Below are positions 926 to 52,708 of a stretch of DNA of 64,000 nt, one piece after another. A program made the position numbers and the translations under genes. Numbering within the stretch: the first letter of the stretch is position 1; every line of letters starts with the position of its first letter. Source of the stretch: Erythrobasidium yunnanense (Eukaryota; Basidiomycota; Cystobasidiomycetes; Erythrobasidiales; Erythrobasidiaceae); NCBI GenBank assembly GCA_001600175.1, contig BCJC01000003.1:558001-622000 (forward strand). The letters run 5' to 3'. The notes under the pieces were generated by a model. It searched no databases. It was not told where the DNA came from and saw nothing but the letters and a program-made list of their open reading frames with translations.

Positions 926-3439
926 CTAGCTCCAAGACATGCCAGGGCTAGGAAAACGATGATGATCGCCCCATCTTGAGGGCGTGGAATTGAGCTCCAA
1001 GAAGCGTTGCCTAGCAGCTTCCTCAGGATCCACACGGCCATGCGCCAAGAAGTCTGGTGAGAAAGTAGGCATAGGCGGCGTGGCTGGCGGCCCGTACATA
1101 GACGACCATTGTTTTGCGTCTTCTTCAAATCGGCTTCCAGTCGGAGCGGCGCTATGTTGTTGCTGATCAGTGTTCACCTCCCACGGGAATTGTGGAAATT
1201 GCATAGAGGGGATGCGGCCATGCTGTTTTGTGGACGCTCGAGATGCAGAGTATTGCAGACCTAGGCCAGGAGACCCAGGCGAATACGTCAGGAACGTCCC
1301 ATTATTGGAGTTGTAGAATGCAGAAGAAGCTGAAGGATAGCCGCTTGATGAAGCAGAATTTGCGATACTGCTCGATGACGTTGACGAAGGCACGCTGTGT
1401 CCGTACCCCAGTTTAGGAGTGACAGGTGCATACTGTCTCGATAATGAATGTGTAGACTGGTGCGTCCGTGTAAACTCTGCGCTGGGCCTGCGAAGCGGAG
1501 TAGTGGGGAATGCTGAAGGTGCCAGAACCAAGGACGAATCTTGGAAGTGTCGCTTGTAGTCCATGCGAGGCGTAGAGCTATGCGTAAAAGTAGGTTCACG
1601 GGCCATGCCTTGCGACGACGTGGAAGATCGCGTAGGCGTATGGGGCGGAGAAGCGATGACAGCTGACTCTGCCAACTCGAGCGGCGGTGTTGGTGACCCT
1701 GCTGGCGCTGCTGCAGGTCCCCCCGACTTGTCTGAAACGACTGTAAGCGGACTGGAGGAGATAGCTCGCGAAATCGCTTCTGCTTCCGCTGCTTCTTGCG
1801 AAGCGGCTTGGGCCTTGTTCGCCTCATCAAGCATCTTCTGCACCGAAGGAGGCAGCGGTCCACCTGTGCATCTGAAGCAGAACCAGTTGTCCGGCAGCTC
1901 CTCATCGTCCAGCTCCAGGCAGTCGAGATGGAACCATGCGATACATTTATCGCACTGCACCATTGGTTCCCCATCGTCGCCTCTATCGCAGATACAGCCG
2001 ATAGTAGCTTTGCTTCGGCCTTTACCCTTCTTCTTGCTTGAAGACCCTCTCTTTCCATTCGCAGCTGGAGCGGAAGCTGTGCTGGCGGGCGTAGCTGCAG
2101 GAGCGGGTGCGGCAGCCTTTTCAGATGCGATTGACCCCTTCTTGGTAGGAGAAGCAGGAGGTGTTGTGGTTTTGGTGTCTTTGGCAGCTCGTTTACTAGG
2201 CGAAGCCGTATCTTCCAGAGACCTAGCCGGAGCGGTGGGCGATGTCTTTGCAGGCGAAGAAACTCCGACGGGTGTGTCAATCTCCATGTGATCATCGAGT
2301 CTTCGCTTTCTCGACATTTTCAGCGGCGTGATGCTCTTTGCTGCCACTTGACCAGGCTGTGCTTCTTGCTGATACGCAGGCATGGCATTCTTATGCTGCT
2401 TCAAAGGCGTAGAGGCGCTCCTTTGCATCATATTACTGCTTGCCAATGCTTGAAGAGCCGGCAAGGGCGGGGCATCTCCAGCTGCGTTCGAAGGTCGGAT
2501 AGACAGATCCCACGACAGTCTCTTTCCGGTACTTCTCAGCATTTCGTCTCTAGCTTCATTCGACATAGAAGGCGGAGACGCAGTAATAGTCACATCTCCT
2601 TCTTCCTCCTGCTGCATCGATAACGAAGAAGAGGATTCTTTCGGCAGAGAGGACCAAACGCCTTCTTTCGCAGCATCCAGAGCCATCTCAGGCGAGTCTA
2701 GCCAAGCTTGTATACGACTCTTCCGCCGGTCCATATCGGTGCTGCCTGAAGCTGCAACTGCGGGTGGAGAGGAGAAAGCGAAGTCCTGAGGAGGCAGAGG
2801 AGGTAGAGGCATGCCCGCTTTCTGGTTGCTGCTCGTGAAGGCATTGATGGAGTTCATGGACGGGAAGGAAGAATGCAAGCTTGATAAGGAAGCAGTTATA
2901 TCATTCTCCGTCCCTGCTCTAGGTCTCGCAGACGTAGGTGTCGTCATCTCCGACCTAGCTGGATCTGCCATGAGATTCAACCCTACATTCCCTGTAGCAG
3001 CAGTAGCTGATTGCGGACTTGTAACGCCTAATCCCGTAGTAGGTGCAGGCGATCCCTTCGGCGTAGACGCTTTCGTGTTGATGGGAGTAAGAGGGAACTT
3101 CCATCCGCTCTGCAACTTCTGCTTCTCGGGATAGATAGGCGCCGTCTTCACGGAAGAGACGGAAGAGGGAGGCGAGAGCGTCGGTGGCATCGTTGCAGCG
3201 GCTTGCACGGGAGCAGTAGCAGGAGCCATAGCGTTATGGAGCGAGTACTGCTTCAGCAGATCCACGGAATGAGGTGGAGTGATGAGCGGTACGATGTGTT
3301 CGCCATTGGCAACAGCGTTGTAGGAGGGGGCATAACCGCTTTCTGACGATGCAGGATAAGTCCAATGCTGGAGATCTTCCTGCTGCCGAGAAGCCATATA
3401 TGCATCTGGGTGCGGAGCTTGGTGATACACAGGGGCGTA

Positions 3440-3482
<43 letters not shown>

Positions 3483-5270
3483 ATGCTGGAGCTGGGAGGC
3501 GAGTTCCGTGCTGACGAGTTGTTCGAAGAAGACAGGACGCGACTCATCAAGCCTCGATCTGGTGTTCTGCCCAACGATGAGCACGTCTGGCTCCTCATCA
3601 AGCCGGGCCTATCACATTCGAAAATCAGCACTGTCGTTCCCTTCAATAGTCAGAGAGCGGGCTGCAAATACTCACCTCGCTGATGAAGCTGTAGATGTCG
3701 CGGAAGACGAGAGGACCGAACTAGTTCTCATCATCCCGAAGCTCGTAGCTAGAGATGCAGAAGGCGTCATGGCCGCACTCTGCGGTGCCATGCCAGATGA
3801 GCCTATCGAAGAGCCCATTGAAGAGGCCACAGAAGAAGACAGCGGTGTCATCTTGCTTGGCGAAGCGAACGGCAATGCTAGCCTGGCTTTTCCGTCCGTC
3901 GAGATTGAAAAGACCAAGCCGGACGAAGCGCTCCCTGCTCCTCCTCCAGGTGTGGAAGAAGAGAGCGCAGGAGTGGCTTTGGGCGATGAGCCAAAGAGGC
4001 CGGGCGTCATTGATGTGGAGGTATTGCTACTACTCGTGCTTCCTTTTCTGCGCTGAGAGGCAGAAGCGTGCGAAGGCCTATAGTATGGCTGTTGAGAAGC
4101 TACCGAAGATGAAAGAGACGATGCCATAGCTGACGAGTTCAGCGAACTCGTTCTCGAGGGCATCAGGCCGCCTTCTGAGGAGATGGTAGTGCTTCGTCGC
4201 GCACGCACTGGCCCAAAGTTCGCTGGTGTACCATTGTACTCCAGAGGGGAGATAGGAGAGGAAGGCATCATTCCGAAGTCGAAGCGTCTACTTGCATTGG
4301 CGTTTGCAGATCCAGGTATCGAAGGAGACGATTGTGCGGAGGACGAGGAGCTCAACGAGGAAGACTGTCTTCTTGATAGAGAGCCCTGCGATATAATCGA
4401 GCCTCTATGTTGTTGCTGTTGCTGTTGCTGATACTGCATTTGCTGCGAACGAGCCATGGAAGCGAGATCCAGCGGAGCAGGCGAGTTTGCCAATGCATAG
4501 ACTCCCTCGTTCCCACTTCCATTTATGCTTTGTCGGCCATTGCTGCTACTACCGAAGAAATGGGGCTGTCCACTGCTGTTCGGTCGTATCGGGCTCGACA
4601 GCGGAGATGCTGGAATAGCATATACAGGTACAGCCTGCGACTGCGTTTGTGTCTGCTTTTGTAGTGTAGGAGTAGTGTTGTTATTGGCTTTTGCTGCGGC
4701 GCCTCGTTTATTCGGAGTCTTGCGAACGTTCTTGGTTGCTGGCTCTTTCATAGGCGATCCAAGCGAGTTGACAGCTGCTTTACTACTGAAAGGGAGGAAG
4801 AGAGAATGCATCAGCTTTTATGTTGACTGTGATAAGGTTGATCTTCCATCTGTCGCCGGCTATCACCACACTATGGATCGATAGCGCAATCTGCTCCCGT
4901 CTCTTAATTGTTGGGTGTGCCGGGAAGAAGGGGTAGCGGACTTTGATAGCGGAAGACGCAGGAGAGAGAGGAGTGTGATAGATAGTAGTACTTACATGGC
5001 TTGGGCATTGTTACTGCTGGCCGCCTGCGCTTCAATGACAGCCTCCATTTTCTTCGACCTTGCGGCGGGTGTCATTCCGGCTTTTTTGCCAGCTGCTTTG
5101 GAGGGCGATACCGAGTTGTTGTACATAGTATTAGGCGTATGCTGCTGCTTCTTGACTGCTTTCAGATGCTCTGGGATCCTCGTCTGTCGCTGCTTCTTTT
5201 GTTGGGCCGGCTGAGCGGGCGCAGTTGCTACTGCTGCAGAGTATGGCGGCGAGTCTGCGTAGGCCGACAT
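926..5270 (-). CDS. large PHD-finger protein (chromatin reader), about 1355 aa
   Basis: The model is exons 5270-4996, 4785-3676 and 3608-926, and all phases close (GCCAT/GTAAGT, TTTCAG/TAGTAA, GCGAG/GTGAGT, GATAG/GCCCGG). Near residues 993-1040 is a C4HC3 PHD finger: CICD, then QCDKC, WFHLDC and FCFRC. This fold usually reads the histone H3 tail, and a nuclear chromatin-complex subunit is the likely role. The rest is low-complexity Ser/Pro/Gln sequence with a polyglutamine run in exon 2 and another in exon 3. The basic N-terminus (residues 1-90) contains a PEHLKAVKK segment. No SET, bromo or other catalytic domain is visible, and Cti6/Set3-like assignments would be guesses. The start ATG at 5270 is the first in the exon. 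Confidence 0.85.
3439..3483 (-). repeat. CAG tract encoding about 15 glutamines
   Basis: This is a pure CTG repeat on the + strand (CAG on the coding strand) inside exon 3 of the PHD gene. Such tracts vary in length between strains. Read on the opposite strand it gives an artefactual polyalanine frame. Confidence 0.9.
4407..4434 (-). repeat. second, interrupted polyglutamine tract
   Basis: A short CAG/CAA tract in exon 2 of the PHD gene encodes about eight Gln next to a QMQY segment. It is less pure than the tract at 3.44 kb. Confidence 0.75.
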
Positions 5271-11158: not shown

Positions 11159-11442
11159 ATGCCGACGAGATCCTTTACTGTGAACTTCCATCGCCAGATT
11201 TACAATCACACCTGGGGCTACATCTACAACCGCATGTGCGATATGTGCGGCAAGGTCGAAGACTGTGAGGAGCTGGATCGCACACGTACAAATAGGTCCA
11301 CCGGTAAACTCGAGACCACACATATCTACGTGTCAGTACATTCGTCCTCAGATTCTATGCTCACTGCTCCTTGCTGATAACGCTTTCCATATCCATACAT
11401 AGGTGTGAGGGCTGCAAAGGCAGGAACGCAAAATACAATTAG
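11159..11442 (+). CDS. small double-CxxC protein A, 70 aa (array member 1)
   Basis: Exons are 11159-11331 and 11403-11442 (TACGT/GTCAGT ... CATAG/GTGTGA, phase 2). The product has an N-terminal aromatic/Asn segment (VNFHRQIYNHTWGYIY), a first knuckle CDMCGK, a third Cys six residues on (EDCEEL), a linker with STGK, then IYV and a second knuckle CEGCKG near the C-terminus. Two CxxC pairs separated by 28 residues suggest one zinc site of ribbon or treble-clef type. There is no signal peptide. The intron splits the codon just before the second knuckle, as in the three genes downstream. Function is unknown, and the family is described here only from the sequence. Confidence 0.72.
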
Positions 11443-12631
11443 CTGTACCGGCCGACTAATCCCAGCATATTTTTTCACGTCTCCGCCGTCCACGTTAAGC
11501 GTTCCGTTGTCCTCCTGCTCCTATTACGAACCGCTTCTGACCCACCGACAAGAGCAACTGATACCACTGCCGTTCTGTCGCACCATTGTCTCACGGTCCT
11601 GCCATCACTCAGTACCGAGTGCTTGCGCTGACGAGCTAGTAAGGTGCTGAAGGGATCTCGTACCTTTGATAGCTTCAGGTCAAGGAACTGGCTCACTCAG
11701 TCGCTCCTCCGATGCGCAGATGTATATGTTACGTTACTGATCGCATGTCTGCGTATACTTCAGGTACTTGGCTAGCGTGCTCTCCGTCTGTGAGTTATGA
11801 CTGACCAAATGATTTGTCTCTATGCACGCATGGCCACAACGACCAATCAAGATATTCGGTACGCAAATCCCTTCAGCAAGCAGATTGAAGAGGCCGCTGT
11901 TGAAACAAGGCTTGGCGATACAAAGTTTGCAGCCATGCCGTTCACTGGAAAGGACATCGCGGTCTGGCGCAACCCTCCGAGGCGACGTCTATATTCCTAT
12001 TGAGCGTAATGGTCAACGGGTGATGCAGCAGGCGTGGGCGAATCACGGGTACCAGTTGGTACTATAGCTATGTTACCACTCAACATCGAGATACGAAAAG
12101 CATCGCTCAAACGCTCGGAATATCAAGATGTCCTCATGCCGGAGCCACTGTGGTTGACGAAGATTTCCGAGGATGGCCTACTTATCGCACAGCCCTCACA
12201 GCGCCGGCTTCAGTTTAGCCTAGCTACACATCTGCACTTGTGTAACTAGGACTAGCAGAGCTCAGCTTACCAGCTTTAAACTCCTCCCAGCGGGAGCGAT
12301 ACAGCGTGACATCGTCATCAGATCTGCCTTGGAGTAGCCGTTCGCATCATCCCCCTATGATAGATCGGGACCCATCGATGCAGAAGCCGGTGTGCAATGC
12401 CCTGTCAAACCTCACACAATAGTACCGCCTAATCGCAACACATGCAAAGGTTGTCTGGCTCGTGGGAACGCCCTACAGAGGAAAGCAAGCACCGCTCCTC
12501 GCTCCGGTACAAGGCGGCATACAAGCAGGGCGTCCTCCTCTCTTTCGTTCCACTACCTCCAGCTGGAACATCAAGCTAAAAGCTACCCAGAACCTTGCAA
12601 AACAAGGACTCCAGATCTACATCAGCAAATC
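11443..12631. other. spacer in the small-gene array, possible gene debris
   Basis: About 1.2 kb without a closed gene model. Near 12439-12453 the bases encode TCKGC followed by a basic stretch. This resembles the second knuckle and tail of the array genes but lacks an acceptor and a first exon. It may be a relic of a further copy or chance. Confidence 0.35.
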
Positions 12632-12893
12632 ATGGCGAACAGACCTGCAACTATTGGCGGCAAAGTCATGTCAACTTACATCTACAACGGCAAAGTGTAC
12701 TCGTACAGCGGCGGCCGCACAGCACACAAGCACACATGTGTGGCCTGCGGTGAGACCAATCACTGTGTCAAATACACATACAATGGCCATGTCATCTACT
12801 TGTAGATGGTAAAGCGTTTAAGGCTTACCTCGACGCTACTGATCGTCACTATGTCACGCTCGCAGATGCGTCTACTGCTGCAAGCCCCAATGA
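12632..12893 (+). CDS. small double-CxxC protein B, 65 aa (array member 2)
   Basis: Exons are 12632-12801 and 12866-12893 (TACTT/GTAGAT ... CTCGCAG/ATGCGT, phase 2). The order of elements matches member A: an Asn-Gly/aromatic segment (YIYNGKVYSYSGG), first knuckle HTCVACGE, third Cys (NHCVKY), a YNGHVIYL stretch, then second knuckle CVYCCK and a stop after two more residues. The intron lies at the identical position and phase. Identity to the other members is low outside these motifs, so the copies are old or fast-evolving. No secretion signal is seen, so a cytosolic or nuclear small zinc protein is likely. Partners are unknown. Confidence 0.72.
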
Positions 12894-13471
12894 GTGCGAT
12901 CGAGTTCGACAGAGCTCGCAATCCACTTTGTACTCTCTAATATTCTCCCGCTTTGTCTTGTTTTTCCCCAAGCACCTCCGTCCCATTCTCTCACCGAGTC
13001 TGGCTGTCCGCCGATCCGCTGACATCAACCAGCTATGAAAGCGTCTTATCTCAACTGAACCTATTCCCAGTTCCGGAGAGCGCCAGTCTGCGATGGTCTA
13101 TCCTTATGAGCGCAAATCCTTGTACGACTCACTGCTTTCTCATCCGATCCGCTGCGTGTCTCTCGCGATCGCTGAGAACATGAGAATGGCTCAAAGGGAG
13201 CATCTCCGTTTTCTCATCAGAACAAAGGTCGGTTTCTCCGCAACCTCCATGTTCCGCGTAACGAAAGGCATCCTGGCCTTCCATCGTTGTTGAAAGGCCC
13301 ATACGCACTACTTGAGGCTACAAGAGCGAGCTTTGAGCTCCCCTCTGCTCTCAATCGCAATCACCCGCAACAAGCTTAGACTTTCAGATACCGAAAGCTC
13401 AAGACAATCATCGCGCCCAGCAGACTTCAGGGAGATCTCAGCAACAGCTGCACATACCAGCGACACATAAA
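12894..13471. other. spacer in the small-gene array
   Basis: 578 bases with a pyrimidine-rich stretch near 12930-12975. One 66-codon frame (13093-13293) has neither splice sites nor family motifs. I treat it as promoter and leader of the next gene. Confidence 0.45.
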
Positions 13472-13770
13472 ATGTCCTCAGGTAACGAAACAGTAAGATG
13501 GCCATCTACCGTGGTCTTCAATGGCTACTGGTCACATAGCGGACTAGAGCCGGTCGCTGCGCAATGCAACATTTGCGGTAAAGCGGGCACTTGTTCACAG
13601 TACAACTCCAACGGCAACGCTTCGGATGTGTGAGCGCCCTCTTCTTGCTGATAGAAGGATCTGCAGGTACTAAGATTGGGTTCAGCTGTTATCGCTGCGC
13701 TAAATCAAACAGAAACAGAGCCCCAAGAAAGAGGTACGGCGGGAGACATGGTCATGGTCAGGCTTCTTGA
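13472..13770 (+). CDS. small double-CxxC protein C, 80 aa (array member 3)
   Basis: Exons are 13472-13629 and 13686-13770 (GATGT/GTGAGC ... TTCAG/CTGTTA, phase 2). It has the family order: VVFNGYWSHSG, first knuckle QCNICGK, third Cys (GTCSQYN), SNGNASDV, intron position, second knuckle CYRC. It differs by a 27-residue C-terminal extension rich in Arg, Gly and His (KRYGGRHGHGQ), which could bind nucleic acid or metal. A second possible acceptor at 13667 does not keep the knuckle in frame. Function is unknown. Confidence 0.7.
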
Positions 13771-14416
13771 GCAGCTGCTTCCCTTCCTTATTTTACTCTG
13801 CTCTGCTCAAACGTCTATTTGCTCCCTTTGGCGTAACATGCATACTCCATCCTCCCTATTTTCTCCGATTGAAAGCCATCCTTTCTTCTAGTATCGCGAT
13901 CCTGCCTAACCAGCTTACAATATGCGCAATCTCGTCTCCTCATCCTCGATTCGCGGAAACTGGAACGCAGCTGTCTTCGAACGGACCTACCTAAGATCCG
14001 GATGCCTGCTGTCTGACCATTTGCTCCTACCACTAAATCCCTTCGATCCTCAGACGCTGCGGCTTGCGCAAGGCCAGCGCGAGCTGAGCTGCTGCCACAA
14101 ATCACACGGAAGCTTCTTGCAGTCTACGAGTACGTTAGCTGGCTTGCTCCTCGCGGCAGAGAGCGCTAAAAAGCAGGAACACCCTTTACGAAAGACACCC
14201 TTCAATCCTCCTCTCGCTAGTCGACCGCGAGTCGATCGCACCTTTCAACGACATGGGGCCTTTGAAGAGCCTTTGTAGGTTAGCGTGCACTGCTCATCCA
14301 CGCTGTTTGCTCGCTGCCTTAAAAGCAGGCAGACCACTCAAGGGCCTCTCTTGCTTCTGATCCTGCACAAACCAGAATCAAGAGAATAAGTAATTGTACA
14401 CAGAGCCATAAGCAAG
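13771..14416. other. spacer in the small-gene array
   Basis: 646 bases with no closed gene. Frames across 13922-14278 are open but composition-poor and lack family motifs. The stretch before 14417 is CT- and then A-rich, as before the other array genes. Confidence 0.4.
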
Positions 14417-14668
14417 ATGCCTGAAAGGATCAGACTTAGCCAACTCGTCCAGCTGAACGGTCAAAGTTGGGTTTACAACACCTCCCAATCCGGGTACGAG
14501 ATGCAGGTCTGTAAGGCGTGCAGGAGGATTGGCATAACGAAGCTTCAGGAGTGCTACTCGTACAACTTCAATGGCAGACAAGCCTGGTTGTGAGTACCCC
14601 AACTACGCATGCCTTTTTGAAAGGGCTGAGAGTCGTCCTACAGCTGCAAGGGTTGCGCAACTAAATGA
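14417..14668 (+). CDS. small double-CxxC protein D, 65 aa (array member 4)
   Basis: Exons are 14417-14589 and 14644-14668 (TGGTT/GTGAGT ... CTACAG/CTGCAA, phase 2). The layout is VQLNGQSWVYN, SGYEMQ, first knuckle VCKACRR, third Cys nine residues on (QECYSYN), FNGRQAWF, intron position, second knuckle CKGC, and a four-residue tail. The gene shares orientation, length, intron phase and motif order with the three genes upstream. It is the last copy found, and the next gene is on the opposite strand. No known domain was recognised. Zinc binding is inferred from the cysteine spacing. Confidence 0.72.
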
Positions 14669-15002: not shown

Positions 15003-15407
15003 TTAAGGCGTGCCGCTTGCCATAGGATCGTCCTTGACTGCCTCTTTCGCGTCTTTATCTGCAGGACCAGCAGCAGTGTCTTCCTGTAGTGTGTCCAGCA
15101 TGCCATCGAGCTGCCCAAGTAAGCGGTCGAGCCTCTTCTCCATCTCGTCGCTTGCGATATCTGCCTGCTCGAGCTTCTGTAACAGCAAGGCCACGCTTTC
15201 GTCGTCCAGATTGGCGATATCCTCTTCTGAAGCACCTCGTAATGCTGCCAATATGGGTTGCAGTGCGCTATCTGACAGAATATCGGTGCTGTTTCCCGGG
15301 TTCAAGCTGCCAGGACCAGCGGCTGTAGTTGTGGATCCATTTGCATTGCTTGTATCATTGTTACTCGTTGCTAGAACGTCGTTTAGATAGTTCAAATCGT
15401 CGCCCAT
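15003..15407 (-). CDS. small acidic helical protein, 134 aa
   Basis: A single-exon frame runs from ATG 15407 to TAA 15003. The N-terminal third is Asn/Ser/Thr-rich. Residues 65-115 are acidic and helical with a heptad pattern (LDDESVALLLQKLEQADIA, MEKRLDRLLGQLDGML), so a short coiled coil is likely. Small fungal proteins of unknown function with this helical pair exist (possibly DUF5572), but I cannot confirm the family. It starts 72 bases from, and divergent to, the eEF1B gene, so the two may be co-expressed. Confidence 0.7.
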   Translation of the reverse strand: MGDDLNYLNDVLATSNNDTSNANGSTTTAAGPGSLNPGNSTDILSDSALQPILAALRGASEEDIANLDDESVALLLQKLEQADIASDEMEKRLDRLLGQLDGMLDTLQEDTAAGPADKDAKEAVKDDPMASGTP

Positions 15408-15479
15408 CTTGTTGATGCTTTCGTGTCAAGCGCCAACTTGGCTCTTCCTTCACCCAACCAAAAACTCTACTCTCACAAA
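15408..15479. promoter_or_regulatory. 72-base bidirectional promoter/leader interval
   Basis: The start codons of the acidic protein (-) and eEF1B (+) are separated by only these bases. The interval has an A/C-rich segment (CCAACCAAAAACTCTACTCTC) just before the eEF1B ATG, as in leaders of strongly translated fungal genes. Transcription must start from a shared or overlapping promoter. Confidence 0.5.
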
Positions 15480-16606
15480 ATGGTCGCTCTTGACGCTCTC
15501 AACGCCTACCTCGCCGACAAGTCCTACATCCAAGGGTGAGTATAGTCATATCCTGCATTGGCTTGCTATCCTCCATCTCCCCCTGCCCTTTTTCACCACG
15601 TTTTTTCAGCGATGAATTATGCTTTGGTCCGTGTTTCCGAGTTATGGCGTCGGGACTGTTGGGTTATAACAGTGCTCGGATTAAGACCCCGTACAGTACT
15701 CAGTCCTGTAAAGGCGCCTCGTCCCGCTATGGCGCCCTGACGAAAATTCCATATTTTTCCAAGCTATCTGAGAACAACCTCGTCGCATCCCTATACTACT
15801 TCTATAATTGTCAAAGAGATACAGAGAAGCTGACTGTGCTTCTCGCGAACCTTCCAGATACACTCCTTCCCAGGCCGATGTGACCGTCTACAAGGCCGTC
15901 GAGTCCTCTGCTCCTTCTGCTCAGTACCCTCACGCCGCCAGATGGTTCAAGCACATCGCTTCCTACGCTGCTCAGCACCCTGAGCTGCCCGGCGACTCCA
16001 GCAAGGACGCCGACTCCCTCATCCCCGCTGTAGCTTCCACCTCTTCTTCCGCACCAGCTGCCAAGGCTGCCGCTGCAGATGACGATGACGACGAGGTCGA
16101 CCTCTTCGGTTCCGATGACGAGGAGCAAGATGCCGAGGCCGAACGAATCAAGGCTGAGCGATTGGCTGAATACGCTGCCAAGAAGGCAAAGAAGCCTGCT
16201 ACCATTGCTAAGGTGTGTAGCACTGCTTTCAAAGTACGTATAGGACTCATCCTGACTGCTTTTTCTATTCCCTGCCCTCCAGTCCGTCGTCACCCTCGAT
16301 GTTAAGCCTTGGGATGACGAAACCGATATGGCCGAGCTCGAGAAGTCCGTCCGAAGCATCGAGAAGGATGGTCTCGTGTGGGGTCTCTCCAAACTGGTCG
16401 CAGTCGGCTACGGTGTCAAGAAGCTCCAGATCACCGTCGTCATTGAGGACGAGAAAATCTCTCTTGACGATCTCCAGGTAAGTTTATCATCAGACGCTAC
16501 GATACCATGAGTAGAGCTAACCTGTCGTATCGCGCGACAGGATGAGATCGCAGAGTTCGAAGACTACGTACAGTCTTCAGACGTACAAGCGATGCAGAAG
16601 CTTTAA
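15480..16606 (+). CDS. EFB1: translation elongation factor 1-beta (eEF1B alpha), 223 aa
   Basis: Exons are 15480-15535, 15858-16212, 16283-16477 and 16541-16606, and all phases close. The product has an N-terminal GST-C-like part ([20 protein letters not shown]), an Ala-rich acidic linker ([16 protein letters not shown]), then the guanine-nucleotide exchange domain ([42 protein letters not shown]). It ends [17 protein letters not shown], close to family consensus. It recharges eEF1A with GTP in the cytosol. The length is that of other fungal eEF1B proteins. The first intron is 322 bases, far longer than others in the window. Confidence 0.97.
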
Positions 16607-30729: not shown

Positions 30730-31243
30730 GGCCAGAATATCCAGCCAGCGCCAGCGATGCAGCCAGAGGTTGCGAGAGGAACTAAGGGAAAAGCCCAAGA
30801 GGAGCCGGAGCTCAAGCTGATGGTGAAAACTGAAGATATAGATACACAACAGCGCAGAGTCAATCCGTATTCTATCCTATGCGCAGCACTGCTTCTGCCT
30901 GATCCATTTTACTGCTGCTCGAAAACCGGACGTCATGCCTATATCCAGCCAGAAGAGCTTCTGGTTGATTCCAGCCTCTACAACCGCTTCTAAACTGTTC
31001 TGTCTATCATGAGAAGGCACTTACTGATGCGTGCGAACGCGGCTGCCGTTGTTGTCGAGAATGCCGGCAAGAATGTCAACGCGATGCAGATGGTACATAC
31101 TTCGTCCAGCTGTGCGGGCTAGTCTGACTCACATCAAATTCAGTAAATAAACACTCCCTGAAGTATGTCTTCGCTGCAAGGGAGACGAGATTCTCTTCTC
31201 CGACAACTAGACATCCCTGAAACGCAATCGTATCGCTCTCAAC
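30730..31243. other. divergent upstream region
   Basis: About 0.5 kb between the Ego1-like gene (-) and glyoxal oxidase (+). No gene is seen. Confidence 0.5.
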
Positions 31244-33831
31244 ATGAGGCGATCTGTACCAGTACTACTCTTACTACGTACAGTGCTCTTTACTACTGCC
31301 GCCCAGCAAGAGGTCTCTTCAGCTTGGAACGGTCAGACGACGCCCGGCAGCGATACCACCCAAGTCGATAAGACGCCCTTTACTCCTTATTGGGTTCCCT
31401 TTGGTTCTCATTCGATAGACGACGCCAATCAAGACATCCAATACAGCCCTTATGAAGCATGGTCGACTTCCTCCTGTGCGGACTGTATTGGCGGATCAGA
31501 GCACATAGCAAGTACTACCGGCGCCAAAGTCATATACACGTTTCATGGCACCAGTATCGACTGGTACGGTACAAGATCGGACAAGAGTGGAACTGCAAGA
31601 ATTTGGCTAGATGGTCAAGAGAAGGCGAAAGTCGACACCTATTCCACCCACAGGCAGAGTCAGCAAATGCTCTTTCATGCGGATCACCTATCTTACACCA
31701 AGCATACCCTCGAGATCGAGGTTGTCGGGAATGGCAATCCTGACTCGAAAGGCTATCAGTTCAGCGTTGATGCCTTCGTCGTGCAAGATCAGGCTGTCAA
31801 GCAGACGAGGTCGCTGAACGTGGGCAAAGGCAAGATGCGAAAAGAACGAAGATCAGCTCGAGGTATAAAGAGGTCGGATCAAGACAGATGGACTCTGGCT
31901 ACAACTGGCAACTCTGGAATATCCGCCATGCAGCTCGCAGTAGTCGACGACAACCGCGTCCTCCTCGTAGACAAGGTCGAGCACAATCTCCTGACTGTCT
32001 CTGGTCATCCAGCTTGGGGAGCACTCTATGATTTCCGTACCAACAAAGTCCGCCAAGCTCTCGATCTCGCTTCTAACTCTTTCTGTGCAGGAGGCAGCTT
32101 CCTTAGTAATGGTACCCTGATCAACATCGGAGGTAACCCAGTTTCGAAAGACCATACTGGATCAGCGGACTTCGGAGACGTTAATGGACTGCAGAGTATC
32201 AGGATGTTCACTCCGTGCGAGAAAGGGAGAGATGACTGTGAGATGGTCGAAGATCCGCAGAGGATCAGAATGGCAAGCCCGAGATGGTACTCCACCGCAG
32301 CGAGGCTAGGTGATGGGTCGGCGTTCATCATGGGTGGAGCCATCAAAGGTGGATGGCAGAACAACAAGTAAGTCGACCTAACCCTGCTCAACGTCTTCAT
32401 AAGCTCAACTCTCTACCCACAGAACCGCCAACAATCCTACCATTGAATATTATCCACCTAAGAACATTCACGGATCACTTGGCCTACCCATTCCCTCTCC
32501 TTTCCTCGTAGGCACGCTCAATGCGAATCTCTTTCCCATCATCTTCTACCTTCCGGACGATACGCTCTTCGTAGCAGCGAACACGCAAGCCATGATATAC
32601 GACTGGAAGACCAACACCGAGAGACGTCTGCCCGATATACCCAACGGAGTCAGAGTCACTTATCCTATGGCAGCTGGAGCTGTCCTGCTTCCCCTTACTC
32701 CTGCAAATCGATATAAGCCTGAGATTCTTATCTGCGGAGGGTCTACATCAGATGACACGTTGGCCAGCTATGAGCATACCTCGCAAGAGCCGGCATCGGA
32801 CCAATGTGTCAGGATGGTATTGGACGGAGAGGGCATAGCTGCTGGATGGCAGGTAGAGAGGATGCCTGAAGCAAGGCTGATGCCGGATCTCGTTCTTCTG
32901 CCGACCGGAGGCGAGTCTTTCGCAGCGACTGTCCCTATCCGTGACTGACTATGTATATACGCAGACGTCCTGATTGTCAACGGAGCTGGCAGCGGAGTTG
33001 GAGGCTATGGAAACGTCAAAGACCAAGTTGGCCAAAGCAATGCTGCAAATCCAGTCTTCACTCCCACGGTCTACAGTCCTTCGGCTCGTCGTGAAGCTCG
33101 CTTCGCAAGCCAGGGCATGCCGACCTCGAGTATCGCGAGGCTGTACCACAGCGTTGCATCGCTGGTCCCGACTGGCGAGATCATGATAGCTGGATCAAAT
33201 CCCAATCTCGATAGGACGGTAGTTGAATATCCTACGTAAGCATATACCCCATACTTACCCGAAAGTAGCGGCTAATGCTTTCGTTTCAGCGAATATCGGG
33301 TTGAGACATTATCACGTAAGCATATCCAAATGCACGGTACGAAGTGACGAGCAGCACTGATCAGTGTGGATAGCACCCTACATGAGACAAGAGCGACCAT
33401 CCTTTGAGGGCCTACCTAGCAATATCGAGTATGGCAAAACCTTCCGCTTGTTGGTGAAGCTATCTGAGGCTACGAAGACAGATGATATCTCTAGTATGTA
33501 TATACTCCCTGCCCAGCCATAGCCAGCTGACATTGTCTGCCTAGTTGCCCTCATGGATCTCGGTTTCGTCACGCACAGTGTGCACATGAATAGCCGACTT
33601 GTCAATCTTCAGCTGCAGACTCTGATTGGTGATACTGAAATCGTCATTGAGGGCCCTCCTTCAGCACAAATTTATCCACCTGGTCCCGCTTGGCTCTTCC
33701 TACTTGTTAAAGGGGTACCGAGCGAAAGTCGGAAAGTTATGGTCGGAAATGGATCTGGCCCTCCCGTCGACAAAGAAGCTATCGAGCATGTCTTGTTACA
33801 CACGAAAGCGTTGGCGAAAGAACACAGCTGA
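31244..33831 (+). CDS. glyoxal oxidase (copper radical oxidase, AA5_1), 771 aa
   Basis: Exons are 31244-32367, 32423-32910, 32965-33235, 33290-33315, 33374-33493 and 33545-33831, and phases close. After a signal peptide (MRRSVPVLLLLRTVLFTTAA), residues about 65-182 form a beta-sandwich-like domain (YTFHGTSIDWYGT, ARIWLDGQEKAKVD, HTLEIEVVGNG). The oxidase follows. The expected copper-radical residues are present: Cys281 in NSFCAGG and Tyr349 in RWYS (the cross-linked pair), Tyr-His in ARLYHS, and the last His in THSVHM. The secreted enzyme oxidises aldehydes to acids and makes hydrogen peroxide. The intron at 32911-32964 is GC-AG, and the fourth exon has only 26 bases. Confidence 0.93.
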
Positions 33832-49681: not shown

Positions 49682-51480
49682 ATGTGCGAGCACTTCCAAG
49701 GGAGATCCATATCAGACGAGCCGGCATTTGGTGAAGAAGGACCGAACCCGCAGTCTGAGCTGCAGAACGACATGCATCCATCCACAGGTTCGCCATGCCC
49801 AGAGCATTAGCTTTTCTCCCTGTTCTTGCGCCAAAAGCTCATATCGCATATCGGAATGATGCAAAGTTACGAGATCTCCTCGTGTGCCCTTCGCAGGCTG
49901 GCGAACTCATCGCCCATTCATACCATACTGTCTCAAGATATACCTTCGGTAGAAGGGGATCTGGTGCGCCTGGTCGAAAGGTCCGTGTTAATCAGGTCCT
50001 GCTCGATCTGGTACACTTCGCTTATCTACCGGCCCACAATTCTGCGGATATAGGAAGCTCTGCAGGCGCTACAGTTCATACCTAACGTTCTTGCGGGAGG
50101 ATGCGGTCTTCTGGCTTTCGGAGGGCATACAGCCGAGCTGGCATTACGGTCGACAGACAAGTTGTCATCTTGGTGTCTTCAGACGGTATGTAACGTCATA
50201 TAGAGTAATAGAAGGGTGGGCTGATGCTGCGAACCTTCTCATCCTCGTCAGCGGGCGGGGAAGTCCATCAATAACTCCATTCATATAGCCCCATCACCTT
50301 CTCATGCCCTCTCGATACCGCATATACTCGTCTCCAACAACGACTGTCATATCTACCGCTACAATTTACATTTTCCAAAGCGGTGGGGATCGCTTGAAAT
50401 CGAGCATGAATGGGTAGCGGGAGAGGTGGATCCGGCAACTGGTGCTACAGGAGGACCACAGCTGCAGGCTGTAGACAAGATAAGACTGGATACTCCGATC
50501 AATCATACGAGTATCAGCCCGGATGGACGAACGATGATCGCGGTAGGCGACACGAATCAAGTAGCTATATTCGATATCAGCAACAGCGGCACTACCACGC
50601 ATATTGAGACCATAGAAGGTGAGTATTTATCGTTTGCTCGCCATTGCAAGCAGGACTCAGACCCGTCTAATCAGTCACGGACGATGCATCTTTCTCGACA
50701 TCCTGGTCGCGGACTGGAGAGCATTTCGCAGTAGCTTCGCAAGATGGCTACGTGACAATATTTGACCGGCGGCAACTCAAGCCGTTAAAACAGTTCACCA
50801 CTTGCCAGAAAGGAAGTCTAGCAGGCGCAGCTCGAGTAGTCAAGTACTCACAAGGTCCACACGAGTTACTCGCATTCTCAGAGCAGAAGAACTTTGTGCA
50901 TATCGTTGATGCACGGACGTATGAATATACAGAAAGGCTATATCTGCCGGCGGTAGAGATACAGGAGAACCAGAAGCTGGAATATGGAGGAAGGGCAGAA
51001 TCGATAATGCGAGACTTCATGAGGCATCCTTTGTTGCTGGAAGATGATCCGCATCCCGCCGTAGCGAGAACTAGTACGCCGAATCCATGGGATACGTGGC
51101 CATCAGATGCCATGCCACCGCAACCTGCACTAGATTGGCGAGACTGTCCACCAGAAGATATGCTCCATCTACCCATTCCTCCTGTCAGAGCGCGCGGAAG
51201 CTACTCGGCTTCCTCAACTAGCGAGCCCAGCCAATATTGGGCATCGTCTACCCCAGCAAGCGCTCCTCGAGCTACTATAGCATCCATTCTTGGAGCTCAG
51301 TCGGATGACGGACCGCCCGCTACATCCGGCTCCTCTTCATCGGCAGGATCGACAGCAGTGACAGGCTTGGACTGGGACCCATCTGGGCGTTTCCTCTACG
51401 CAAGTATGGAGAAGATCATCCTCGAATGGGAAGTGGATGCCGACAGTAGACGGTGTCATCCTTATGCGACGTACTTATAG
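49682..51480 (+). CDS. DUF2415-type WD40 protein, 520 aa
   Basis: Exons are 49682-49787, 49838-50010, 50075-50185, 50252-50618 and 50675-51480, and phases close. The family start KLRDLLVCPSQAGELI, NVLAGGCGLLAFGGHTAELA, and repeat blades (HTSISPDGRTMIAVGDTNQV, RTGEHFAVASQDGYVTIFDR, GLDWDPSGRFLYASMEKI) match the fungal DUF2415/WD40 proteins of unknown role. A Ser/Ala/Pro-rich loop interrupts the last blades. The N-terminus (MCEHFQGRSISDEPAFG) was chosen because it is the first ATG that splices in frame. An alternative is ATG 49795. Confidence 0.85.
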
Positions 51481-51703
51481 GTTTTCTGGCACCTATTCAG
51501 AAAGTTGTTGTGTTCCGCCGAAGTAGAAGTCTGTCGTTATATAGCAGTATCGATTTTGTAGCCTCTTTGTGTGAGAAAGGTATCCAAGCTTGGTCGGCTT
51601 CTCATTTATAGCTATATCGGTCACCCCTGCTTTGACCAGCCCGTGCTGTCTTGTCTCCGCTTCGAGATGCTACAGGACCTTTACCGCTTCTCATGCAGCT
51701 ATG

Positions 51704-52708
51704 TCATCTCCATATCTTGACGCTTCCATCGCTGCTAGCCGTGACGAACATATCCATCTCGTCCGTTGGGGCCTGTTCTACCCAGAGCACAGACTTCTCC
51801 GCAATCTTGACTTCATCTATTACCCTCTTGTTGTCCGCTAGATCCCACCTCCAGAACTTGCCATCTTCATCACCTGCAATCACGGTAGCTTCGCCGTGTC
51901 CGAACGCAGAGTGGATTCGGTAGGAAGTGTTCCGATGGCCTTGATAGCGCTGTAGCTCGCTGCCGTCTGAGCGGTCCATGAGATGGATGGTGCTGTCGAG
52001 TGCAGTCACGAGCATAGTTTGTGCATCCTTCGTCAGGCAGACAGAAGTGATGGGTTCTGCGGACAGCAATTTCAGCTGCAGGTAAGATATTGGATATAGT
52101 AGAAGCTCACGATCAAAGAAGTCAGATCGCAACTCTCCCATTCTCAAATCGTAGGTCCTGACATGTCCGTCGACGCTGCTCGCTACGATCTCCCTATCTC
52201 CAAGCACCACACAAGTGATGCTATCCCTCGCTTCTTGAAGGATCTGGATGGGTCTGCCTTGCTGGCTCTTCACGTCCCATAAGCGAATCGTAGCGTCGAA
52301 AGAACCGCTTGCTAGGACTGTAGATTCGGCATTGAACGCTACACTGTTGATGCGTCCATTATGACCTGTATACCGCTTGATGATAGTAGACGTAGGCACA
52401 TCCCAATACATTGCGCTGTTCAAACCACTATCAGCTTGCTGATGCCTGGCTTTTCGACATGATTCGGGCTTGCTTTACCTTCTATCACCACCGCAGCTTG
52501 CAAATCTGCTGTTATCATGCGCGACGCTGATTCCGAGAACTTCGTAGCCATGCCCGCTATAAGAGCTAACGAGCGCGCCCGTCTGGGCATTTACGAGCTT
52601 GATGGACCGGTCTTGACCACCGCTGAGGACATAGCTTCCATTCGAATTGAAGACGGCGCAATGTGCTGGACCGCGAGCGTGTGAGTAGGAATGCAAGGCA
52701 TCGAGCAT
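51704..52708 (-). CDS. WD40 protein WDR83/MORG1 homologue, 295 aa
   Basis: Exons are 52708-52479, 52415-52111 and 52056-51704, and phases close. Seven blades are visible: AHCAVFNSNGSYVLSGGQDR, SGHGYEVLGISVAHDNSRFA, GHNGRINSVAFNAESTVLAS, ARDSITCVVLGDREIVASS, VDGHVRTYDLRMGEL, PITSVCLTKDAQTMLVTALD, and a last SSDGSVKIWR. Order and spacing follow human WDR83, which scaffolds ERK signalling and also joins spliceosomes. The second intron is 54 bases, a multiple of three, with no stop, so retention would add 18 residues. Confidence 0.92.

Follow-up and report, generated by a model that had tools for sequence, protein, structure and literature searches.

Four small predicted genes, here called g1 to g4, lie on the + strand within 3.5 kb at positions 11159-14668 of the window, the whole 64,000-nucleotide stretch of Erythrobasidium yunnanense DNA that was analysed (Table 1). 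Rebuilt from the DNA, all four models encode short proteins (70, 65, 80 and 65 residues, respectively), in agreement with the four genes of 65-80 codons described by the first-pass annotation. The four introns run from GT to AG, all in phase 2, and span 54-71 nt. Each splits the codon directly before the second CxxC (a V, L, V and F codon in g1 to g4), again as had been described. The donors of g1 and g2 are unusual. A CTNA branch-like site, which is a common word, occurs in every intron 13-26 nt from its end, and none of the four genes has an upstream in-frame ATG.

In the spliced proteins, only five or six of the 65-80 residues are cysteines, which are grouped in knuckles; 28, 18, 18 and 23 residues lie between the two CxxC motifs of g1, g2, g3 and g4. 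Their isoelectric points are 8.7, 9.1, 9.6 and 9.4 in the same order. Two elements of the architecture first proposed stand in part. The third cysteine, placed 5-9 residues after the first CxxC, is found at 5 residues in g1, g2 and g3 but at 10 in g4; the Asn-Gly segment, attributed to every gene, is present in g2-g4, whereas g1 has IYNHTWGY instead, with TGK further on.

Table 1. Exons and introns of the gene models g1 to g4 (window positions)
Feature	Position	Strand	Description
g1 exon 1	11159..11331	+	first CxxC CDMC, plus third Cys
g1 intron	11332..11402	+	71 nt, phase 2, donor GTCAGT
g1 exon 2	11403..11442	+	second CxxC CEGC, through stop; protein 70 aa
g2 exon 1	12632..12801	+	first CxxC CVAC
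g2 intron	12802..12865	+	64 nt, phase 2, donor GTAGAT; retention gives TAG at exon edge
g2 exon 2	12866..12893	+	second CxxC CVYC, through stop; protein 65 aa
g3 exon 1	13472..13629	+	first CxxC CNIC
g3 intron	13630..13685	+	56 nt, phase 2, donor GTGAGC; retention gives TGA at exon edge
g3 exon 2	13686..13770	+	CYRC, Arg/Gly/His-rich tail, through stop; protein 80 aa
g4 exon 1	14417..14589	+	first CxxC CKAC
g4 intron	14590..14643	+	54 nt, phase 2, donor GTGAGT; retention gives TGA at exon edge
g4 exon 2	14644..14668	+	second CxxC CKGC, through stop; protein 65 aa

Between g1 and g2, a 57-codon ATG frame (MATTTNQDIRYANPF..., 11831-12001, + strand) is unlike the members by eye and has no Pfam match. 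Downstream, at a distance of about 0.8 kb, a translation elongation factor 1 beta gene occupies 15480-16302 (+ strand; EF-1_beta_acid, E 3e-15 in the frame 15808-16302), position 15480 being our reading of its start. The minus-strand frame between this gene and the array (15006-15425) has no Pfam match. Elsewhere, the window holds a long frame with a PHD finger (926-3649, - strand, E 1.1e-9), a glyoxal oxidase N-terminus (31211-32371, + strand, E 6.1e-16) and, at 50671-52474, two adjoining WD40-type frames on opposite strands, of which the + frame also matches DUF2415. Nothing in the window reaches an Rfam gathering score, and no tRNA was detected there.

Chance expectation and coding signal

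The arrangement of motifs and intron was formulated as a search grammar at three levels of stringency. With strict donor and branch rules, the narrow grammar recovers only g1 and g3 and nothing in 40 shuffles. After these rules were relaxed for g2 and g4, the grammar, thus tuned on the four genes themselves, matches g1-g4 alone in the window, 200 kb of flanks and a 3.1 kb locus on contig 1 (L006). The same grammar with a phase 0 or phase 1 intron gives no match in these sequences, and none appears in 60 dinucleotide-shuffled windows. Because of this fitting, a looser grammar was applied, which admits any intron phase, a CxxC anywhere in exon 2 and a protein of 45-110 residues. Across the window, 20 flank pieces and 12 loci from the GATA search (300,885 bases of the same genome, partly overlapping), it finds eight loci, four of which are the array. 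Each of g1-g4 is parsed with a phase-2 intron directly before a CxxC, and g3 also allows further parses. The proteins of the other four loci lack NG and are unlike the members by eye; one of these loci (L010) shares the phase and place of the intron but yields a Cys-rich reading without the motif. Arithmetic from this background gives about 0.05 loci expected per 3.5 kb, against four observed.

The coding signal differs among the four genes. In the nine long frames of the window, GC at codon positions 1 and 2 is 0.50-0.58 and GC at position 3 is 0.49-0.55; the corresponding values are 0.41-0.43 and 0.65-0.68 for g1, g2 and g4, and 0.52 and 0.51 for g3. On the general codon score, all four genes fall under the nine long training frames, at percentiles of 0.20, 0.26, 0.53 and 0.20 for g1 to g4 among the stop-free stretches of the window, a low score that no doubt stems in part from their odd amino-acid make-up. 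When only synonymous choice is scored, the real value is reached by 10 of 2000 random recodings for g3, 87 for g4, 101 for g2 and 419 for g1, so that the result is clear for g3, borderline for g4 and g2, and negative for g1. In all six pairs, conservation is lower at the third codon position than at the second, by a slight margin for g2-g4, in alignments made from the proteins, which favour this outcome.

Kinship of the copies and search for relatives

Similarity among the copies was compared with shuffled proteins in which the cysteines and the first Met were held fixed and the remainder permuted over 2000 rounds, the tails of g1 and g3 having been trimmed beforehand. The real alignment score is reached by no shuffle for g2-g3, by two for g3-g4 and by three for g2-g4; for g1 the counts rise to 22 with g3, 27 with g4 and 158 with g2. 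In leave-one-out profile searches against 8,237 other open frames, g3 is recovered at E 0.0076, g4 at E 0.016 and g2 at E 0.58, the last ranking under two unrelated frames; g1 is absent among the nine rows listed for its search. On the strength of these shuffles and profiles, g2-g4 are one family as judged from their sequences, and g1 is a member chiefly by architecture, place and intron. The tandem duplication first proposed thus holds for g2-g4, which share similarity beyond the cysteines and a common intron, and is weaker for g1. Identity between copies is 24-31%, and the divergence is too great for dN/dS to bear out the diversifying selection first suggested. DNA repeats within the array are short, the best three-copy repeat coding for YIYNR in g1, YIYNG in g2 and YNSNG in g3. 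No 6-mer is common to the four 500-base upstream stretches, against a mean of 2.5 in shuffles.

The earlier statement that no known family matches is upheld. Pfam returns no family at E <= 10 for any of the four proteins, in a search whose filters discard most matches with E values over about 0.1. Four NCBIfam families (E 0.013-2.1) and ten PHROGs families (best E 0.0085) were each hit by one member and were dismissed as chance; the best NCBIfam match scores 15 bits, where the curated cut-off is 300. A profile of g1-g4 matches 33 PDB sequences, mostly generic zinc proteins, the best being a C2H2 protein at E 0.025. A match of g3 to a gamma-tubulin complex protein (E 0.00045) was rejected, as it is summed over four repeats of the tubulin-complex protein with no single stretch passing and the cysteines are mismatched; g2 queried alone in the same kind of search gives no match. 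Against 5.8 billion proteins, the alignment of g1-g4 yields one candidate and nothing at E <= 10, and in this kind of search g2 alone meets no protein sharing three words. As a control, a long flanking protein recovers 11 relatives at E <= 1e-5, the best 41% identical and from a Cyphobasidiales metagenome assembly, with a Microbotryomycetes isolate, two Rhodosporidiobolus and one Sporobolomyces among the others named. By this one control protein, the host is probably a Pucciniomycotina basidiomycete with no near relative in the database, and a fast-evolving protein of 65 residues could escape the search. The lineage specificity first proposed for the family is drawn from the lack of matches in this database, where relatives could have been overlooked. 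The titles and opening lines of abstracts in the literature searched describe no such family, which is no proof of its absence from print.

Within the 20.9 Mb genome (10 contigs), each protein recovers itself and no convincing further copy, a census that is insensitive because single members fail to recover one another. A composite query typed from g1-g4 finds g3, g2 and g4 alone at E <= 10 and misses g1. The one doubtful match, L006 (E 0.039 with g4), turns up again at E 0.17 and 0.10 in two of the leave-one-out searches; it has neither the NG/aromatic pattern nor a second CxxC in frame and was rejected as a member.

The low identity, the lack of relatives in protein searches, the unusual donors of g1 and g2 and a codon signal that is missing in g1 and weak in g2 and g4 are what would be expected of decaying or never functional frames, the drifting remnants of an old family. 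This reading is nonetheless improbable: in all four genes the frame has stayed open across 65-80 codons, five cysteines align and the splice sites are usable, shuffled sequence gives nothing comparable, and the flanks give four unlike readings. The array appears to be a real, orphan, tandem set of genes, and its proteins are probably zinc-binding.

Predicted protein, metal site and intron

All four spliced models carry both CxxC knuckles in one short domain, which fits the single zinc site earlier proposed for the pair; the zinc itself is inferred. AlphaFold predictions on the exon 1 parts, with the second CxxC outside the modelled region, have low confidence (mean pLDDT 46.1 and 43.5). The first NG lies between two strands in both runs; around the second NG, strands appear in run 1 and only two-residue strands in run 2. 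Because Asn-Gly is a favoured tight beta turn, a fold is proposed in which two hairpins, turning at NG and each linked to one CxxC knuckle, would surround a single zinc.

The likely reading, preferred here from the sequence features, is that g1-g4 are four old, fast-diverging tandem copies encoding basic, apparently non-secreted Cys4 zinc proteins that contain a zinc-ribbon-like binding module. One small ancestral gene would have given rise to the four copies, whose products are 65-80 residues long. The two CxxC knuckles, which would jointly hold one zinc, may sit on a pair of short beta-hairpins, with Asn-Gly at the turn of each in g2-g4. The folded unit would most likely serve as a module for binding a nucleic acid or a protein partner, a role proposed because the proteins are basic, have a Cys4 layout and, in g3, end in an Arg/Gly/His-rich tail; the isoelectric points and this tail suggest that the partner may be a nucleic acid or an acidic molecule. 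Architecture and intron position appear to have been preserved in the copies as the rest of the residues drifted.

Small size, cysteine content and tandem arrangement are also features of secreted cysteine-rich effectors and metallothioneins. The N-termini of g1-g4 show no hydrophobic, signal-like stretch by eye, and the few cysteines are set as knuckles, which makes this assignment extremely unlikely. For the host interaction or allorecognition earlier put forward, nothing was found in favour.

The position of the intron raises a further alternative, in which its retention would truncate the protein before the second CxxC, so that splicing would switch zinc binding on or off. Continued into the intron, the frame reads TTG TAG in g2, GTG TGA in g3 and TTG TGA in g4, so that translation would halt immediately ahead of the second CxxC and half of the predicted metal site would be removed in three of the four genes; two of the four donors are, moreover, unusual. 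But a phase-2 intron with a GTRAG donor stops the frame at once wherever the preceding base has no influence, and introns of this phase with usual donors tend to do so by default. The stop at the exon edge thus largely follows from intron phase, and the pattern is suggestive at most. Retention in g1 meets no stop at the edge; translation would continue for 14 codons, yielding a product that lacks the second CxxC. Such splice gating is unlikely. A paper on the mushroom Schizophyllum commune takes up intron retention as a theme, as far as the frequency of the term there indicates (counted 16 times; PMC5034255). The wider proposal, that stand-alone Cys4 zinc proteins restricted to one basidiomycete lineage have a new two-hairpin fold and an intron between the halves of the metal site, with splicing deciding between a metal-binding and a half-site product, is highly improbable.

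If expressed, the old tandem copies of a Cys4 zinc protein preferred here would form a compact unnamed family; with 65-80 codons and last exons of 25-85 bases, genes of this kind may readily escape annotation. They offer a small case for how far a protein drifts while its metal site and intron stay; by themselves, they do not point to a new mechanism.

Comparison with known zinc proteins and tandem families

GATA fingers are defined by CxxC-x17 or x18-CxxC and carry WR and LCNACG motifs. The spacing CxxC-x18-CxxC in g2 and g3 and the G that follows the first knuckle in three genes out of four are shared with this family (PF00320), and g1-g4 could be derived GATA-type fingers that have lost their DNA-contact residues. 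However, g4 and g1 have spacings of 23 and 28, the WR and LCNACG motifs are missing from all four, and none matches PF00320 (Pfam, E <= 10). The intron also lies elsewhere. Of 12 GATA matches in the same genome, the nine over the cut-off all have a frame that runs unbroken into the second CxxC, and none has an array-type intron, position being judged by the open frame and the three matches under the cut-off being left out of this count. Since the genomic GATA frames are unbroken where the array genes have their intron, a GATA origin is unlikely as judged from sequence, although the intron may have moved; descent with loss of the contact residues is very unlikely when all these differences are taken together. 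Two pairs of GATA matches lie about 1 to 2 kb apart (C7:527078-528080, L030 and L037; C1:3630473-3632528, L038 and L034, with L038 under the cut-off), and the frame breaks in these pairs suggest introns elsewhere in the finger than in the array genes.

Zinc ribbons and Cys4 knuckle proteins, such as the ClpX zinc domain and TFIIB-type ribbons, are a second point of comparison. Unlike these, g1-g4 have a predicted hairpin-like segment at the N-terminus and a third Cys in addition, and their profile has no significant sequence match (in the PDB search, best E 0.025 to the C2H2 protein; ClpX zinc domain, E 0.51). Two CxxC knuckles are common to both; a beta-hairpin probably joins them, and one zinc would be expected. 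Lineage-restricted tandem gene families also exist in fungi. In contrast to these, g1-g4 form one array with no convincing dispersed copy, as far as an insensitive search can tell; the local clustering, the low identity and the kept intron are features that the array has in common with such families.
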